From: a virus
IMG/VR virus record: IMGVR_UViG_3300035698_017564
Span: 1-21,729 of that record
Direction: 5' to 3' (one strand)
Length of the DNA stretch: 21,729 nt
Part shown: piece by piece, positions 1 to 21,245 of the stretch
How positions within the stretch are numbered: the stretch's first letter is position 1
Layout of the letters: each line of letters starts with the position of its first letter
Notes under the pieces: model-generated
The model's input: only the letters and a program-made list of their open reading frames with translations
Databases searched by the model: none
Told to the model about the DNA's origin: nothing
Translations under genes and position numbers: made by a program

Positions 1-225
1 AATTTCATCTAATTGAGGAGTGAGAACCTTTATTCTATGATCTAAGGTAGTGACCACAGAGTACCCGTTTTCGAGAATAGTCTCCTGTACTGACTTTCTT
101 CCCGTTTCTGCATAATTCGTAATGGGGTGAGATTTATTTCTTACCCAAACATCATTATTGGATATATCCTGTTTAATAGGAACAAGCCCTTTCGTAGTAT
201 TAATAAGCGAGTCCCCGTCTAGGCA
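1..225 (-). other. Intein N-terminal splicing domain inside terminase (partial)
   Basis: Seventy-five residues that do not fit a terminase but match the start of an intein. Splicing block A is at the junction: Cys1 followed by LDGDSLINTTKGLVPI, the usual nucleophile, GDS/T, and G-L-V-P-I pattern. Block B is at residues 54-67, with the TxxH motif as Thr60-Leu-Asp-His63 at the usual distance from Cys1. The upstream flanking residue is Phe. The insertion point is after the LRGDTR stretch, immediately before the expected Walker B Asp-Glu of the ATPase, a critical site of the kind inteins favour. The window ends before the endonuclease region and the C-terminal His-Asn plus +1 residue, so I cannot say whether it carries a homing endonuclease or is a mini-intein. 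Confidence 0.9.
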
Positions 226-1230
226 GAAAAGCCTGGTGTCTCCTCTCAATGAGCTAGAGTTAGCTGCAAGCATCTGAACAGAGATTCGCTTACTAGTGAA
301 CATAATAAATGTCTGTTCTGATTGGTACAGCTGTATTCCTATTCTTTTTCCTTCAGCTATTAAGTAGTCTCTGAACGACCTAAACCAAGGAGAATCGTAG
401 TAAGCATGACGAAAAGATAGCCATAGATTCTTCTTGACCTGCTTTAACGTAGGAGCTACGAAAGCTGCATCAAACACTACATTATCAGCTTGTTCAAAAT
501 AATTACTTAACGATGGAATGGCTAAGTAACGGTGTAGAATATACGTCCAGCCGAATGTAGAGACCAAAAAAGATTTTCCACTCCGCTGTCCCCATACACC
601 AACAAACTCATTCGGAGGAACGGGACGAATTGAAGCCAGAGCTGCGTCTTCTAGGTGGGGGTTATACCGTGAAAATCGTGGATCTCTATGCCACTCTGTC
701 AAAATTTCCGTTCTATTCCGTTTACACTGAGGACATACTCCGTGTTCTAATAGAACAAACCTATCTAAAGTCTCTCCTACCGAAGCATTTACAGGAACGT
801 TATGAATATAGTCTACGTCGCTACAAAGATAACAAACGTCTTTAAAAAATTGAGCAAGGACTTGGATTTGTTTAGGGAATAGTTCTGTTCCAATATTCAA
901 AAATTTAGGATTACGACACCAGTCAATAACGTTCTTGGCGACAGTAAATTGCCTCTGAGTAAAACTAGCTGTGTCTAAATCAGAGGCAATAGCTCTTTGA
1001 ATCAACTCTACAGGATTCGGGAGTACATCAGGGTTAGCGGGGAGGGTTCCTGTTTGGAGAAGACTTAGTGCCTTGGATTCGTCATCATTTCCAGGAGGAG
1101 GTGCTTTTATAGTAACTGACGGAGGACGGACTCGCCTAATAGGCTTTACATCGGCCTCCTTAGTTTTGCTTAAACTTTTAGGTACTCGTCGCCGTTTAGA
1201 CAACCTATTTTTTTCTTTTTTCTTAGTCAA
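1..1230 (-). CDS. Terminase large subunit, intein-containing, 3' end beyond window
   Basis: DNA-packaging motor ATPase that pumps the phage genome into the prohead. The frame is open from 1230 to base 1, giving 335 terminase residues and then 75 intein residues. A basic N-terminal tail is followed by an FPKQIQVL segment like the adenine-binding Q motif. Two CxxC pairs (C133/C136 and C166/C169) could form a zinc ribbon. The ATPase motif is GQRSGKS (K219), the terminase-type deviant Walker A. The segment SLRGDTRLF (ending at residue 335) is the conserved stretch just before the Walker B acidic pair; the intein begins there. Residues after it, and the nuclease domain, lie outside the window. The start is inferred as TTG at 1230: no ATG occurs in frame near the 5' end, and AGGA lies 12 bases upstream. 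The preceding in-frame codon block is only UGA-UGU-UUA-UUU after the upstream gene. Confidence 0.88.
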   Translation of the reverse strand, partial: MTKKKEKNRLSKRRRVPKSLSKTKEADVKPIRRVRPPSVTIKAPPPGNDDESKALSLLQTGTLPANPDVLPNPVELIQRAIASDLDTASFTQRQFTVAKNVIDWCRNPKFLNIGTELFPKQIQVLAQFFKDVCYLCSDVDYIHNVPVNASVGETLDRFVLLEHGVCPQCKRNRTEILTEWHRDPRFSRYNPHLEDAALASIRPVPPNEFVGVWGQRSGKSFLVSTFGWTYILHRYLAIPSLSNYFEQADNVVFDAAFVAPTLKQVKKNLWLSFRHAYYDSPWFRSFRDYLIAEGKRIGIQLYQSEQTFIMFTSKRISVQMLAANSSSLRGDTRLFCLDGDSLINTTKGLVPIKQDISNNDVWVRNKSHPITNYAETGRKSVQETILENGYSVVTTLDHRIKVLTPQLDEI

Positions 1231-6688: not shown

Positions 6689-8203
6689 TTACGCTGCCAC
6701 CCAAGCACCACCGACCTGCACGTAGAGATAGTCAGCACCGGCACCAGCCGTATCAATGACCATCGATCCGAGGGGAAATCCACCAGCAGCAGGGAAACCG
6801 GCTACGTTAACAAAAGCTGGGATAGCTGGAGCACCAATCGGCAACCAAGCAGCACCAACCTGTACGTACAGATACTGATTAATCGTACCACCATCGAGGG
6901 CGATAGCTAAAGTACCTTCAATTACACCAGCCGCAGCAGCGAAAGCAGCCAGATTAGCATACGTAACTGCGACTGCAGGAGTAGAAGCGACCCAAGCACC
7001 GCCAATCTGAGTGTATACGTACTGTAAAGAACCGCCACCAGAAAGGTCGACAATCATAGTTCCCTCAGCATAAGTCGCAGCAGCGGGGAAAGCAGCTACG
7101 TTGGCAAAAGTCGCAGCAGCTGCCGAACCCGTAGGTAACCAAGCACCACCAACTTGGATCCAGGTGTACTGACCATTACCATTACCGTCAATAGCAAGAA
7201 CGATAGTACCTTCAATTACACCAGCCGCAGCAGGGAAAGCAGCTACGTTAGCATACGCCATATTCGAGGTAAGCGAAAGTACCCAAGCAGCACCAATCTG
7301 TACGTAGAGATGCTGGTTCGTACCACCACCAGAGATATCTACAATGACAGTACCTACGGGGAAACCAGCCGCAGCGGGGAAACCAGCTACGTTAGCATAG
7401 GACAGCATCTGTCCAGTAGTACTCGCCTCGACCCACGCACCACCAACCTGAGTATACAGGTAACGATTAAAGCCGCCACCCGAGATATCTACGATCAAAG
7501 TACCTACGGGGAAACCAGCCGCAGCCGGGAAAACACCAACCGTAGCAAAAGTTGCGGCGACAGCCGAGTTAGTAGCTACCCACGCACCACCAATCTGAGC
7601 GTAGAGATACTGTAAATTACCGCCACCAGAAAGATCTACGATCAGAGCGCCTTCAGTTACACCACCGGCAGCAGGGAAAGCAGCTACATTGGCAAAAGTT
7701 TCCGAAACAGTAGCATCAGCCTCAACCCAAGCACCACCGACCTGAACGTACAAGTACGTTCCTACGTCTCCACCATCGAGGGCGACAGCCATCGTACCCA
7801 CCGGCACACCACCAGCAGCAGGAAAAGCGGCCAAGTTGGCGTAGGTAACGGTAGGAGAAGCAGGCGTAGTAGCAGTCCACGCACCACCAACCTGAGTATA
7901 CAGGTAATTCAGCGCACCACCACCAGAGAGGTCAACTGCGATGGAGCCCTCAGGAATAGTCGAAGCAGTAGGAAAGTCACCCAGAGTCGAATAGACATTG
8001 GCGGGACGGAACAATTTCTCGTCCGTAGGCACCGACATCGACAGGTAACCATTAGTCATTAACTCTTGAATATCATCGTCGTAACGAAGCTCATCAGAGT
8101 CAGTCCACTCGACGATAATAGACCCATGGGGATCAATCATCTTGTCTACGCGTGGTACGTTTAAGGAGTTAGCAGTAAGATTCGTGAAAGTAATGAGCGA
8201 CAT
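6689..8203 (-). CDS. Repeat-built virion protein, nine ~49-residue repeats
   Basis: A 504-residue protein. Residues 1-70 form a unique N-terminal domain that includes DPHGSIIVEWTDSDELRYDD and may attach to the particle. Residues 71-504 are nine tandem repeats of about 49 residues. The consensus is (Y/F)ANVAAFPAAAG, a G-T/S-(M/L)-I-V-D-L-S-GGG segment, then YLYVQVGGAWV and a 7-9 residue Ala/Thr/Ser linker. The last repeat stops right after GGAWVAA. The repeats are beta-rich, Gly/Ala-rich and almost without charge, as expected for a fibre shaft, head decoration or adhesin-like virion protein. The gene is visibly richer in G+C and in GCN/GGN codons than its neighbours, as often seen in abundant structural proteins. 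Start ATG 8203 has AAAGAGAGG about eight bases upstream. Fibre versus decoration protein is not resolved. Confidence 0.8.
   Translation of the reverse strand: MSLITFTNLTANSLNVPRVDKMIDPHGSIIVEWTDSDELRYDDDIQELMTNGYLSMSVPTDEKLFRPANVYSTLGDFPTASTIPEGSIAVDLSGGGALNYLYTQVGGAWTATTPASPTVTYANLAAFPAAGGVPVGTMAVALDGGDVGTYLYVQVGGAWVEADATVSETFANVAAFPAAGGVTEGALIVDLSGGGNLQYLYAQIGGAWVATNSAVAATFATVGVFPAAAGFPVGTLIVDISGGGFNRYLYTQVGGAWVEASTTGQMLSYANVAGFPAAAGFPVGTVIVDISGGGTNQHLYVQIGAAWVLSLTSNMAYANVAAFPAAAGVIEGTIVLAIDGNGNGQYTWIQVGGAWLPTGSAAAATFANVAAFPAAATYAEGTMIVDLSGGGSLQYVYTQIGGAWVASTPAVAVTYANLAAFAAAAGVIEGTLAIALDGGTINQYLYVQVGAAWLPIGAPAIPAFVNVAGFPAAGGFPLGSMVIDTAGAGADYLYVQVGGAWVAA
6692..7993 (-). repeat. Nine degenerate tandem repeats of ~147 bp (coding)
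   Basis: The DNA repeats with a unit of about 147 bases, 1302 bases in all, in frame within the virion repeat protein. Units share near-identical blocks such as the code for GGAWV and for AAFPAA but differ at synonymous and linker positions. Duplication is therefore not very recent, and length change by recombination remains possible. Confidence 0.85.
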
Positions 8204-16066: not shown

Positions 16067-16852
16067 CTATTTCTTGAAAAGAGGTTTCATTAAACCCATT
16101 TTTCCATTTTCTTCTTCATCGTCCACCACTTCTAATGCGTACTTTAACCTTTGAGTAGCAATAGGCATGTACTCGTCTTCTTTTTCAAACCCTATAAATC
16201 TACGGTTGAGAGTTACTGCTGCAACACTAGTAGTACCAGAACCAAGATAAGGGTCAAGTACTATATCTCCGGGTCGAGAGCCTAGAGTAACTAGATAACT
16301 TAGAAGTTTGATAGGTTTTACCGATGGATGATGATTGGCACGGGGCACAGCACTGGACTTAGGTGTGGTCCGGCCCGGGTTGTCTTTGAACTCTCCCATC
16401 TGAGGCTTGGCTTTTTTAGGGAGGTCATCAAGTCCCACGTTCTTTTCCTTTTTAGCTGCTTTCGGGACGAGTAAGAAAGGAAATACTTTTTGTACTGAAG
16501 CAGGTAGATTTTGAATAGCCCAAGCATCGAGGTCGAAGTAGCGAGAGAAGGAACCGGAATCAACATATCCCAAATCAGGAGTACCGACATCAAGATTTCC
16601 TATATTACCAGACCCATAAACATCACCCTTTTGTGTACCTTTGGTTCTTCGCGCAATGCCACTGCCTGTTATTCCTGCTCCGCTCAATGCCCCGTCGTTC
16701 AATGGATCGGACACTTCCCTAATGTGCTTTCCCAATGCACCACTGGTCATAGACTTCAAATCTGATGTGTCTAAGCCAAGATACTGCAAGGCACCCCGCC
16801 CCTCTGGTGTAAGAACCACTTCCCCATTACTCGTTTTCTTGAAGTAACTCAT
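16067..16852 (-). CDS. DNA methyltransferase, C-terminal half (AdoMet-binding part)
   Basis: The downstream piece of a beta-class amino-methyltransferase. A 261-residue frame from ATG 16852, chosen because AGGAGAAAGG lies upstream. It contains SRYFDLDAWAIQNLP and SVQKVFPFLLVPKA, typical of the segment before the AdoMet site in phage enzymes. Then come NHHPSVKPIKLLSYLV (motif X) and DIVLDPYLGSGTTSVAA (motif I, the AdoMet-binding loop, at about 196-212), followed by NRRFIGFEKEDEYMPIATQR (motif II-III region). Motifs IV to VIII are absent here and are found in the gene at 17698-18798. Its first 26 bases lie inside the homing endonuclease frame. Alone it should bind AdoMet but lack the catalytic DPPY; it probably pairs with the N-terminal half. 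Its own start signal argues against a dead fragment. Confidence 0.85.
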   Translation of the reverse strand: MSYFKKTSNGEVVLTPEGRGALQYLGLDTSDLKSMTSGALGKHIREVSDPLNDGALSGAGITGSGIARRTKGTQKGDVYGSGNIGNLDVGTPDLGYVDSGSFSRYFDLDAWAIQNLPASVQKVFPFLLVPKAAKKEKNVGLDDLPKKAKPQMGEFKDNPGRTTPKSSAVPRANHHPSVKPIKLLSYLVTLGSRPGDIVLDPYLGSGTTSVAAVTLNRRFIGFEKEDEYMPIATQRLKYALEVVDDEEENGKMGLMKPLFKK

Positions 16853-17705
16853 TTGGCCTTTCTCCTGCATGTATCTCAGAACCCCATAGCCTAATCACTC
16901 GATACCCACGCTCTTCCAATTTTCTGTTTACCCATTTATCCTGAGCTGCTGTTCTAGGCTTCTTGTGCCAATAATCTCCATCTGCAAAAATGCAAATGTT
17001 TGGTTCTATGAAAAAATCAGGTCGACACACGTCTTTAATTACACGCTGCTTCTCATGCACTACCTCATTTTTGATCAGCCACGCCTCTAGGATAAGCTCA
17101 ATATCGGTATCGCATACTCTAACCATCGGTGGATCATTGATCATCGTGCGTGACCATGCACGCCCTCTGCACTTGCGAGAACAATACACAGGAGGTGGAT
17201 TCTTGCGCTTGCGCGTCGTCTCCTCTCCACATTCGGCACAATTAAATACAATTGGACCACCCTTCCAATTCGGGTTATCTGGCCCTGTTGGATATTCTCT
17301 GCCACGATTGATCGCCCGTGAAGCACATGATCTACTGCAAAACTTACCATTCCCGCGATTAGCAGTACTTCTATACACTTCAAACTTAGCACCACATTCA
17401 ACGCACACCATTCCGACACGCTTCTTTGGCTTATACGCAAATGCAGCCTTGATACCCTCGCTGATTTTTCGTTTTGTGTTTTCGCTTCGTGGTCGACCAT
17501 AAGACAGATCATCCCCTGCACTCTTGCTCATGCCCCTGTTCCATCCTCTTCCTTTTGCTAACTGCTTTTTTCCGTGCCCGTGTTTTTTGTACAACTCGCC
17601 TCGACACCCACGGCAACACACATGCTTTGACCTGGCTAAATCAGAAGGCCTTCTATACAAAGGCTTCTGACATACCTCACATTCAACATTCGGATTCCTA
17701 CTCAT
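16827..17705 (-). CDS. Vsr-like (EDxHD) homing endonuclease with zinc fingers and NUMOD3
   Basis: A site-specific DNA endonuclease of the mobile, free-standing type that copies its own gene into cognate empty sites. The 292 residues hold, in order: a zinc finger (CEVC, CCRGC, 9-34); a NUMOD3-like DNA-binding segment (YGRPRSENTKRKISEGIKAA, 69-88); two more zinc fingers (CVEC/CSRSC 101-127; CAEC/CSRKC 156-179); between them GPDNPNWKGG, common in homing endonucleases; and a C-terminal Vsr-type nuclease. Candidate catalytic residues are E203, D230 (CRPDFF), D242, H247 (DGDYWH) and D256 (QDKW), matching the EDxHD family. It overlaps the upstream methyltransferase half by 8 bases and the downstream half by 26, leaving no room for a group I intron core. 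It thus seems to be inserted into and splitting the methyltransferase. Confidence 0.88.
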   Translation of the reverse strand: MSRNPNVECEVCQKPLYRRPSDLARSKHVCCRGCRGELYKKHGHGKKQLAKGRGWNRGMSKSAGDDLSYGRPRSENTKRKISEGIKAAFAYKPKKRVGMVCVECGAKFEVYRSTANRGNGKFCSRSCASRAINRGREYPTGPDNPNWKGGPIVFNCAECGEETTRKRKNPPPVYCSRKCRGRAWSRTMINDPPMVRVCDTDIELILEAWLIKNEVVHEKQRVIKDVCRPDFFIEPNICIFADGDYWHKKPRTAAQDKWVNRKLEERGYRVIRLWGSEIHAGERPNELLQENE

Positions 17706-18798
17706 CCTTAAGTGCCTCTTGCAGTCTAAACAATTCTTCCATATTAACGATTGGTTGTGTTTCTACCAATAAATTAGCGGGGAACCTCCCCTTCGGGTCT
17801 CCACCACGGGGACCTGGGGTCTGTGCAAAATTGGTGCTACCTTTGTCTGTGTAACGACGGTCTTGCGACGGTTCGTTTTCTCGGGATTTTCCACCCGAAG
17901 ATGGAATTCTCCCGTCATCTAACCAGGTACAGCCTTTTCTGTTATCCAATGCCTGGTCCAGATACGTCTTCTCGCTCAGTGGGCGCATTACTACCAAAAC
18001 GTGTTCTAGGCTCGGCTTCGGCTGGAATCCTGCGTAAGCTCCATCGAGGTAGACAGCTTCCTCTGTGACTGGAGCTGTAGCGTCTGGCTGGTCCTGTACT
18101 ATCCCGAACTTTGTCTGTCGCTTCTCTTTGTACCTAGCTCCGTCGTAGCCACCATCTTTTTGATTCGGGTTAGAACTAGTACCTACCACGGGACGTTTCG
18201 CTCCGGCTCGTTTATCTGCTGCCTTTGATAAGTTGTGAGCCTTCGGCATACGAGCGGCTACTACCCAGTACAAACTGGTGAACCCTGTCACGAACCCAGC
18301 ATCATCCAGGGTCACTATCATACGAGCTAAGCAGTCCTGTCTGGGCGTACACAGTACGAACCCGAAAGCTCCGGGCTTCATCACTCTTAAGCACTCTTCC
18401 CACACCTCTACAGGAGGTACGGCCCGATCCCATTTTTTACCCATAAATCCCGACGATCCAGAACCCCCACCCGGTTTCTTAGGGTTTACAGAAGTAAGAC
18501 CGTAAGGCGGATCTGTCACCATCACGTCTATGTAGTTATCTGGTAACTCCTTCAATCTATCTAAGCAATCCCCCTGAACGACTGTGTTAACGTCTGGCGG
18601 GAGTTCTCCTTTACGAATAGCTACAGGACCATGTTCCTTTTTCAGCAACCTCAGGAGTCGTTTGGCTTCCTTCTTAGAAGTGCTAGCTCTGTAATACCCT
18701 AGCTTCTCCGGTATACCCAATACATTGCTCAGATCGTCAGGACAAGCCACAGCGATCTGGAATTTCCCTTTTTTCTTTTTGTACCAAAATTCAGTCAT
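17698..18798 (-). CDS. DNA methyltransferase, N-terminal half (catalytic DPPY part)
   Basis: The upstream piece of an N6-adenine or N4-cytosine DNA methyltransferase. A 366-residue protein. An N-terminal extension (1-70) is followed by the core strand VVQGDCLDRLKELP and catalytic motif IV TDPPYGL (DPPYG at 96-100). Next come GFMGKKWD, VWEECLRVMKPGAFGFVLCT (motif V-VI region) and the variable segment likely to read the target site, ending near KGRFPANLLVE. The chain stops at 17698, before motifs X and I, which lie in the gene at 16067-16852. The order IV...X-I places the enzyme in the beta class. The break lies after the target-recognition region, between catalytic and AdoMet-binding halves. 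Target sequence cannot be read from the protein; self-protection or anti-restriction are likely roles. Confidence 0.88.
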   Translation of the reverse strand: MTEFWYKKKKGKFQIAVACPDDLSNVLGIPEKLGYYRASTSKKEAKRLLRLLKKEHGPVAIRKGELPPDVNTVVQGDCLDRLKELPDNYIDVMVTDPPYGLTSVNPKKPGGGSGSSGFMGKKWDRAVPPVEVWEECLRVMKPGAFGFVLCTPRQDCLARMIVTLDDAGFVTGFTSLYWVVAARMPKAHNLSKAADKRAGAKRPVVGTSSNPNQKDGGYDGARYKEKRQTKFGIVQDQPDATAPVTEEAVYLDGAYAGFQPKPSLEHVLVVMRPLSEKTYLDQALDNRKGCTWLDDGRIPSSGGKSRENEPSQDRRYTDKGSTNFAQTPGPRGGDPKGRFPANLLVETQPIVNMEELFRLQEALKDE

Positions 18799-18800
18799 GA

Positions 18801-21245
18801 CTAGGACTTCAACTCGTCTTCGTATCGTCTAGACATCGTTACGTACCTAGACGGTGGGGTTTCTTGGTAGAGCTTAGATTCGTTGTTCTCTCTAATAGCC
18901 CACCATACCTGATCCCAAGCTTCATGTTCTACAACCTCGGTGAGATGGCTCACAACAAAAATGGAACTGAATTGACTTTTCAGAACCTGGAGAACCTTCA
19001 ACAAGGCTAACTTCCCCTGAGGGTCAAGATGACTAAAAGGCTCATCTAAGATCAAAATGTTCCCGGAACGTCCCGTGTAAATTTCTTTTAAGTCTCTCAA
19101 TCCAAACACAAAGGCTAACCCTGCTTTGTGACTCTCACCACCAGAGATCGCCCTGCTACTAGTCCCAGCATCTATCCCTTTTCGAGATAATTGAAATCGA
19201 ATAGCGTTATCAGTCGGCTCCAATTCCAAGTTAACCTGTTGATTCGGCCAAAGAATGTCCGAATACAGAGGAACAGTTTTCTCCGCTGCTTCCTGCATAA
19301 TAGCATGTAGCCGGTCGTGCTTCAAACCTTTTTGTCCAAAAGCAATTTTTAAAGCCTTGTAGCAGTCTTGCTTATCCAGGATGTCCTTGGTCTTCTTCAA
19401 TTCCGTCTCTAGCTTAACTTTTCTCTTCCTGGCCCCAGACACCTGGTTCATGTTGGTCCGAGCCGTGGTGGACTTCTCAGACAGGTCTGAGATAGAATTA
19501 GTCAACTGCGTCAACAGCTTCTCTAATTTACGCATTTCTCGAAGGACGGACTTCCTGGACACCTTCTTCAGTTTCTTCACTCTCGTAAGTCTGTCGTTAA
19601 TACTCTTAGCAGCTTCTAACTTATTTTCCAGCTTTTCTACGAGTAACTTCTGTTTCCCAATTGTCTGGCGTAATTCCTTAGCTCCAGCTTCCGGCATCGC
19701 CTTCAATTGTTTCCGTATAAGTCCTCTTCGCTGCTCACCCTCTAACGTCTCCGTCAAAACCCGCTCTCTCAGCGTCAAAGTAGAGATCTCGATTCGAATG
19801 TCTTTTACTCTTCGTTTCGTTTCGATTTTCTTGAGGCGTTCCTTCAAAGCAACTACCTTTTCGAGAAGAACAACATCCTTTTCTAATCGATGTACTGATA
19901 CGTTCACTTCCTTTAACTCTAAACGATTTTTCTCTAATTCCTCTTCCAACTCGGTAATCTCAGTTGTACCAAGACTAAACGACCTATGACAGGTAGGACA
20001 AACATCTTTATCAAGCTGAGTTTTTACTGCTCTAATAGACGCAGACAAATCAGATTTTAACTCTGTTAAACGATCTAATTCCTCCCTCGAAGCGGTATCT
20101 TCTAAATCGTCCGGGACATTCAATCTCTGAATGTCCTGAAGAATCTCAAGACGAGACTCTGCTTGAGGTAGTTCACCGTATTGAAGGTCACTCAATCGAC
20201 TCTTTGTTTCAACCAATTCGAGATTAACTTCCTCAACGTCTACCTCTTCCGTTCCCAATTTCTTTAGCTGCTTCTCTAAAATATCTTTTTGGTCTAGCAG
20301 GCGTAAAGAACTCTTAGCATCTACGTATTCGGTTTGAGCCGTCGTAAGCTCCTCCTTGATACGGGAAATATACTTCTTACTACAATATTTGGCTGATTTT
20401 AAATCTGTATGAAGAGGAGGCGTATTATTCCAGACCTCTTTTAATTCTTTAAGAAAAGCTGCTCTCTGCTGTGACTCTTGAAGGTCACCTTCCATCTCCC
20501 TTAATTCTCGGACGGTAGCATCCAGAGCAGTCTTTTCACCTTCAAGTTTTTCGTCACACTTTAAATACTCGCTTCTTAGCTCTTCTTCTGATGGATTATC
20601 ACTAAGAATACCTTTCAACTTTTCCATCTCAATCTCACTAGCTTCAATTTGCTGGAGATTTGTTTCGTTAAGCTTACTCCTAGTATCTACGTTCTTTGCA
20701 AGACGATCATATACATCCAGATCGAACATTTCAGTGATCTGGTGTTTCCGCTGGGCGTCTGTTCCGGATAAAAGGACATTCGTCATACGTTGTGCCATAT
20801 ACCTAAGATGGAAAAACGTATTAGTTGTTGTATTCAAAAACTCTTCGCCACGAATCCAGGTATGAGCGTGGGCACTATTTTTAGTGGGTAATATGTTCTG
20901 ACTAGTCTCCAAGTCTATTACCCTTGCGCCGTTTCCATACCTATGGTGATTCTGGTACAAGCTGATTCGGTAGTCCTTTCCATTCAAAGCAAACCAGACC
21001 GAGACCTCCAAATCTTTTCCTGCCTGATGATTAACCATATCAGAGAATTTGGTGTTCTTACCTCCCTTCCCCATTTGTGCAATAGCAAAAGCTTCAAATA
21101 GAGAAGACTTACCCGCACCCAAAAACCCACCGTCGTCTACGTTTAATCCTCGAACAAAGACCAAACCCTGATTATCTAGTTGGAAGTTGAATTCTCTATA
21201 AGAATATATATTCTTCCCAGAAATTCTTTTGTACTCAATATCCAT
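18801..21245 (-). CDS. Rad50/SbcC-family ATPase, phage recombination nuclease subunit
   Basis: ATPase subunit that clamps DNA and drives the partner nuclease (T4 gp46/Rad50/SbcC type) in end processing, recombination and replication start. An 814-residue protein. Residues 1-60 hold the N-terminal ATPase lobe with Walker A GFLGAGKSS (40-48). About 185-640 is long coiled coil interrupted by a zinc hook DVCPTCH (C416, C419) at the hairpin tip. The C-terminal lobe has the ABC signature ISGGESHKAG (700-709), Walker B ILILDEP (730-736, E735), D-loop SHLD and H-loop VVSH (H767). All motifs are intact. The nuclease partner (Mre11/SbcD/gp47) is not in the window; it may lie upstream beyond 21729. The stop is two bases before the methyltransferase start. 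Confidence 0.93.
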   Translation of the reverse strand: MDIEYKRISGKNIYSYREFNFQLDNQGLVFVRGLNVDDGGFLGAGKSSLFEAFAIAQMGKGGKNTKFSDMVNHQAGKDLEVSVWFALNGKDYRISLYQNHHRYGNGARVIDLETSQNILPTKNSAHAHTWIRGEEFLNTTTNTFFHLRYMAQRMTNVLLSGTDAQRKHQITEMFDLDVYDRLAKNVDTRSKLNETNLQQIEASEIEMEKLKGILSDNPSEEELRSEYLKCDEKLEGEKTALDATVRELREMEGDLQESQQRAAFLKELKEVWNNTPPLHTDLKSAKYCSKKYISRIKEELTTAQTEYVDAKSSLRLLDQKDILEKQLKKLGTEEVDVEEVNLELVETKSRLSDLQYGELPQAESRLEILQDIQRLNVPDDLEDTASREELDRLTELKSDLSASIRAVKTQLDKDVCPTCHRSFSLGTTEITELEEELEKNRLELKEVNVSVHRLEKDVVLLEKVVALKERLKKIETKRRVKDIRIEISTLTLRERVLTETLEGEQRRGLIRKQLKAMPEAGAKELRQTIGKQKLLVEKLENKLEAAKSINDRLTRVKKLKKVSRKSVLREMRKLEKLLTQLTNSISDLSEKSTTARTNMNQVSGARKRKVKLETELKKTKDILDKQDCYKALKIAFGQKGLKHDRLHAIMQEAAEKTVPLYSDILWPNQQVNLELEPTDNAIRFQLSRKGIDAGTSSRAISGGESHKAGLAFVFGLRDLKEIYTGRSGNILILDEPFSHLDPQGKLALLKVLQVLKSQFSSIFVVSHLTEVVEHEAWDQVWWAIRENNESKLYQETPPSRYVTMSRRYEDELKS

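Follow-up and report, generated by a model that had tools for sequence, protein, structure and literature searches.

Inteins in Phage Terminases

In mycobacteriophages, inteins occur most often in terminases, and one of the sites known there, TerL1-e, lies in Walker B (PMC5050341). The TerL1-e intein of Mycobacterium phage Gaia (gp2) splices by assay and is grouped with the class 3 inteins, and its host TerL is filed as terminase_1 (PMC5050341). Terminase inteins are mentioned for PaBG-like ("Lupandier") jumbo phages (PMC7412058), and two in one terminase are reported for cyanophage Mic1, where they occupy different domains, ATPase and nuclease (PMC7156551), and for crAss-like Delta phages, whose inteins are described as Hint-Hop (PMC7886860). 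Neighboring intein sites with mutual effects on homing are reported from haloarchaeal MCM (PMC10643990).

We analyzed a viral DNA of 21,729 nucleotides (IMG/VR record IMGVR_UViG_3300035698_017564, positions 1–21,729; "the window"). In it, the large terminase (TerL) of a large tailed phage is very probably interrupted by a cis-splicing intein of class 1, about 498 residues long and bearing an internal LAGLIDADG homing endonuclease; the flanking residues are Phe(−1) and Cys(+1), the latter standing three positions ahead of the Walker B Asp. What is new is the exact position of a class 1 intein in TerL; the kind of element, terminase inteins including those at Walker B, was already known. Class 3 inteins have no Cys or Ser at residue 1. 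The window resembles TerL1-e, as far as the available text of that report goes, in having an intein in Walker B of a terminase ATPase, but site and class differ, because the Gaia insert follows SFIILNE, i.e., comes after the acid pair, and starts with Ala, whereas that of the window is of class 1 and starts with Cys1, three residues before Asp. The host proteins also differ (terminase_1 vs. phrog_17415), and membership in TerL1-e or class 3 was therefore rejected.

The PaBG-like phages compared (Erwinia Alexandravirus, Yersinia fHe-Yen9-02, and Lu11) share the terminase lineage of the window by homology and tree but carry P-loop inteins (GQR/C...HN/SGKS; slashes mark junctions), 223–231 residues long in Yen9-02, SNUABM_2, and Lu11, which fall elsewhere on the intein tree. 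Haloarchaeal MCM is similar in having several close intein sites in one ATPase, although that ATPase is a cellular helicase.

The Window Ends Inside the Intein

The minus-strand frame at 1–1230 encodes TerL and runs off the record end at position 1. Its terminase part matches phrog_17415 (terminase large subunit) in a profile search, with the best stretch at residues 211–336 of the frame, stopping at profile position 525. The frame reads ...SSLRGDTRLF and then CLDGDSLINTTKGLVPI...VVTTLDHRIKV...DEI; Cys1 of the intein is residue 336, and the intein part, which starts Cys-LDGDSLINTTKGLVPI, comprises exactly 75 residues. The features are as follows, with identities to two contigs, L002 and L046, that are described below.

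226–1230, minus strand: N-extein, TerL ATPase domain as far as the Walker B strand (phrog_17415, E 5.6e-34; TerL profile match); start codon TTG at 1230, uncertain
571–591, minus strand: Walker A/P-loop, GQRSGKS, uninterrupted
226–249, minus strand: LRGDTRLF, the eight residues that close the N-extein and lead into the Walker B strand
1–225, minus strand: first 75 residues of the intein, from its splicing domain, truncated at the record end (91% identical to L002, 64% to L046 intein 1)
205–225, minus strand: block A, Cys1-LDGDSL
37–51, minus strand: block B, TTLDH (TxxH; His is intein residue 63)
18801–21245: SbcC-like ATPase (phrog_77)

A preliminary description, made from the letters of the window, had placed an intein N-terminus right after the LRGDTR stretch and a TxxH block B at residues 60–63. 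Both placements hold: Cys1 follows LRGDTRLF, so that the insert is 1–225 on the minus strand, and TLDH occupies intein residues 60–63. A permissive pattern for class 1 block A, composed with the window sequence in view, matched once in the six frames of the window and in none of 200 mononucleotide shuffles. The NCBIfam model intein_Nterm matched the partial sequence weakly (E 0.024; 15.6 bits, below the cut-off of 24.5), and because of this we regard the N-terminal part by itself as suggestive but inconclusive; the decisive support for an intein is the homologous continuation in L002 rather than the N-terminal match. That continuation and the shuffles together rule out a chance match to block A. 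A group I intron in place of an intein was also rejected, since Rfam finds no intron in the window (its sole two matches are subthreshold snoRNAs) and the reading frame stays open across L002.

The Continuation in a Second Contig

L002 (IMGVR_UViG_3300035698_006376; 6132 bases), the single contig retrieved from an IMG/VR scan with the window frame, begins inside the same intein and agrees with the window at 189 of 201 overlapping bases (94%); the 12 differences fall in 11 codons, 5 of them silent and 6 changing the residue. One frame of L002 passes through MTPELGYLLGYYVSEG and LAFLSGFIEGDG to NPVFDISVDSNEHAFVANGIVVHN, then CALDELGWF, and on to the terminase stop. It contains two LAGLIDADG motifs with an acidic residue (LLGYYVSEG and LSGFIEGDG), which lie outside the part visible in the window, followed by canonical blocks F/G (...VANGIVVHN), a +1 Cys, and the rest of the terminase. 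L002 matches two Pfam families above gathering, Intein_splicing (E 4.3e-14) and LAGLIDADG_3 (E 2.3e-20), and it also exceeds the cut-off of NCBIfam intein_Cterm. The C-terminal terminase part takes up phrog_17415 at 525/526 (E 9.2e-53), precisely where the window part leaves it; the two halves abut there, and with GQRSGKS and LDE present they belong to the phrog_17415 TerL family. We found no second intein in the L002 terminase. The terminase is followed by a 123-residue gene and a gene of portal size in L002 as well as in L003, a relative free of the intein; in L002 the latter gene is a portal by PHROGs.

The features of a class 1 intein are thus divided between molecules: the nucleophilic Cys1 and block B stand in the window itself, His-Asn followed by a +1 Cys (where Cys, Ser, or Thr is called for) is found in L002 and L046, beyond the truncated copy of the window, and the insert is in frame within a host protein that is continuous in relatives. 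The window itself shows intein residues 1–75, and the full length given for its copy is taken from L002, a different molecule that is 94% identical. The preliminary description had left the type of the intein open; the window copy is still truncated, but L002 points to class 1 with LAGLIDADG. That description had also foreseen, downstream, His-Asn followed by Cys, Ser, or Thr, a hydrophobic pair with the Asp-Glu of Walker B, and LAGLIDADG or HNH motifs in between. L002 has HN then CALDELGWF and two LAGLIDADG motifs between the splice blocks, and the Asp-Glu is there, but it is preceded by the +1 Cys-Ala-Leu and not by a hydrophobic pair. The C-terminal splicing motifs and the remaining terminase, on which the proposed intein had been made to depend, are both present in L002.

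Position 1 of the window and position 1 of L002 both fall within the first ~225 nucleotides of the same intein; strain-variable sequence at these contig breaks may have defeated assembly.

The Insertion Lies in the Walker B Strand

Intein-free relatives are continuous at the motif: LRGATRICASLDELGWF (L003), LRGGTRVFCSLDELGWF (L020), LRGATRIFATLDELGWF (L023), and LRGATRILGLIDELGLF (Achromobacter phage Motura). The joint of the window and L002, LRGDTRLF + CALDELGWF, has the same length as the motif of these relatives, which places the insert within the Walker B strand and puts the +1 residue three positions ahead of Asp. The LRGDTR stretch leads into this strand (phrog_17415 is matched to 525 by the window part and from 525/526 by the L002 part), and LRGDTRLF aligns with LRGATRIC, LRGGTRLF, and similar sequences in relatives. 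The continuation in L002 and the uninterrupted relatives thus bear out the earlier assignment of the insertion to Walker B of the ATPase site.

Among 58 profiled relatives, 54 have no insert in the terminase at Walker B, most of the closest ones among them, and 4 (L025, L029, L030, and L046) do; a P-loop insert occurs in 14 and a nuclease-domain insert in L030 and L031. These frequencies are no prevalences, the loci having come from pattern searches with nonrandom sampling; 13 phage records were hand-picked from the matched ones (182 matched for the C-terminal part), and repeat loci of contigs already in the set were skipped. The nuclease-domain inteins are the second one of L030 (1939–7098; IKVV/CFDRW) and that of L031 (3481–7146; IDAGYN/SNSF). 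In L038 (865–4248) a terminase intein lies between P-loop and Walker B (SPWF/C..HN/CDY), its middle interrupted by stops, which we read as a decayed or frame-split endonuclease. L035 (3209–5347) encodes what looks by eye like a replicative helicase, with a P-loop intein of ~265 residues (GGGK/C..HN/TSMA), adjoining an intein-free terminase.

Structure Prediction

AlphaFold2 with a seven-row alignment gave a model of L046 intein 1, which is 63% identical to L002, with pLDDT 80.7 and pTM 0.78; a single-sequence prediction for the L002 intein reached pLDDT 31.8. The best PDB matches of the L046 model are LAGLIDADG inteins: TliVMA (7qss; 4.8e-19), PI-PkoII (2cw7), PI-PfuI (1dq3), and PI-SceI (1vde). 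They share its fold, a splicing domain with a two-motif LAGLIDADG endonuclease, but are only 10–16% identical in structural alignments and sit in other host genes, and Foldseek whole-chain TM-scores against solved whole inteins are moderate (0.40–0.55 by query). In a viral library, the model also matches several phage terminases, a phage helicase that contains an intein, and further viral proteins with inteins.

Shifting Sites and a Tandem Pair

The other Walker B inteins lie close to the site of the window. That of L029 is at the same site (LRGRTRFL, then TGLDE), that of L025 one residue later (LRGRTRIIA, then SLDE), and that of L030 five residues earlier (LRGK, then TRIISALDE). L046 (4659–10037) has two inteins within a single open frame of 1793 residues, LRGGTRLF/C...HN/CAQDELGWFN/C...HN/CDDSGRKRAG, also recovered as two separate matches. 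Intein 1 occupies the site of the window, and intein 2 lies ten residues downstream; the two are only 50% identical, so the pair is no simple assembly duplicate. The catalytic DE sits in the 10-residue extein CAQDELGWFN between them. This tandem pair is the most unusual feature that we found for this terminase gene. Mic1 and the crAss-like phages likewise have more than one intein in a terminase, but the available text of those reports gives no two that are ten residues apart, and we found none in terminases in the literature on tandem, adjacent, back-to-back, or neighboring inteins, a search outside which many journals lay.

The intein tree, built from 20 inteins, places those at Walker B, six inteins at four microsites, on one side of a branch with support of 90/91, below the starred level, and L046 intein 2 beside L002 and L046 intein 1 (100/99); the nuclease inteins group with those of portals (99/99), and the P-loop ones lie elsewhere. 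On the terminase tree (49 rows, after 9 near-identical rows were dropped and L038, in two frames, and L073, short of Walker B, were omitted), the Walker B label needs 5 changes, at least 4 of them forced by well-supported branches, and clusters no more than shuffled labels do; the window/L002 row is nearest to L046 (56–57% identity). Among the matches listed in our intein scans of IMG/VR viral contigs, there is no further close member besides L002 and L046, and 45 pattern stretches in bacterial and archaeal genome contigs contained no relative.

The trees conflict in a way that agrees with lateral spread through homing and subsequent local shifts of target; a scattered distribution through many losses seems the weaker alternative. 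We consider it unlikely, in particular, that the insert splices with its endonuclease dead or unused for mobility and descends vertically, with patchiness due to losses. Most terminases of the close clade are indeed without an intein, but both LAGLIDADG motifs with their acidic residues (SEG; EGDG/DGDG) are kept in L002 and both L046 inteins, the trees disagree, and the sites differ by 1–15 residues, which losses alone leave unexplained.

Our tentative reading of the lateral spread, which we hold as a possibility rather than a probability, is that one LAGLIDADG lineage specializes on Walker B of this TerL family and reinvades it at shifting microsites (+1 residue −8, −3, −2, or +7 from Asp), having landed twice in L046, where intein 2 would be a duplicate of intein 1 retargeted by ten codons. 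If so, the middle extein of L046 would join the motor only when both inteins splice, and an occupied site would no longer protect the terminase gene there. The relatives form a compact natural series (empty, one intein, shifted, two in tandem) for questions of target change and of whether an intein hinders or favors the arrival of another.

Portal genes show related arrangements. In L199 (3862–9969; the contig of L062), a portal frame of 2036 residues has three inteins, ESFL/C..HN/SGDATYN/C..VVHN/C..QTHN/TMEIALSVF, of which 2 and 3 adjoin directly, without a single extein residue in between; Cys1 of intein 3 is therefore the +1 residue of intein 2, and on paper either order of splicing would yield the same product. 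Under the reinvasion reading this would be a further step. L042 (7476–10784) and L052 (7524–10736; L200, 827–5929) have portals with single inteins at two neighboring sites, ETFL/C..HN/SGEANYN and SGDATYS/C..SSN/TMETLLS. For annotation, this means that packaging genes of these phages may be broken by several inteins and overlooked.

Proposed Mechanism

The residues and trees point to canonical class 1 splicing with LAGLIDADG homing. Walker B has a known role in terminase ATPases, and since the insert parts the Walker B strand from the Asp-Glu pair, the unspliced precursor should be inactive and should not hydrolyze ATP. Cys1 would form a thioester, Cys+1 would take over the N-extein, and Asn498 would cyclize beside His497, the ligated terminase becoming the active packaging ATPase. 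During coinfection, the endonuclease would cut intein-free terL alleles, and repair would copy the intein into the cut allele. That packaging would depend on splicing, as the preliminary description proposed, is a sound inference from the sequence.

Conditional splicing at Walker B could in principle serve as a posttranslational switch that delays packaging until late infection, and regulated splicing would then gate genome packaging. The position should hold the unspliced motor inactive, and the available text of PMC7156551 and PMC5050341 discusses a regulatory role and inteins whose splicing depends on a stimulus. We nonetheless think such a switch quite improbable: the five terminase inteins reported as assayed in PMC5050341 spliced quickly, and the quick splicing of TerL1-e, which is among them, speaks against a slow one. 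It is highly improbable that the window copy is split or decayed, with the N-terminal half alone adjoining the terminase and the remainder elsewhere or broken (trans-splicing or none), for although the window ends within the intein, L002 breaks in the same first ~225 nucleotides, stops interrupt the L038 intein, and an endonuclease ORF seems to fracture a methyltransferase gene in the window itself, L002 (94% identical in nucleotides) and L046 (64% in amino acids to the window part) each run on in a single unbroken frame, and the coincident contig ends could come from strain-variable sequence affecting the assemblies. Canonical cis-splicing stays our preferred reading.

Genome Context

Of 12 records tested, 5 contain relatives of the SbcC-like ATPase of the window (27–37% identity); one of these records, 349,793 bases long, also carries the terminase relative L024. 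The window is likely to be of jumbo-phage origin. A DNA methyltransferase at 16067–18798 is divided between two ORFs, 17698–18798 and 16067–16870, which match phrog_67 at positions 122–255 and 274–346, and the ORF between them (16827–17705) resembles Vsr/HNH endonucleases. The methyltransferase gene looks fractured by a homing endonuclease; Rfam finds no intron at this place in the window. At 6689–8203, a protein of 504 residues contains, by eye in the translation, about ten imperfect repeats of ~45 residues (..VAAFPAAGG..GTMIVDLSGGG..YLYVQVGGAWV..).
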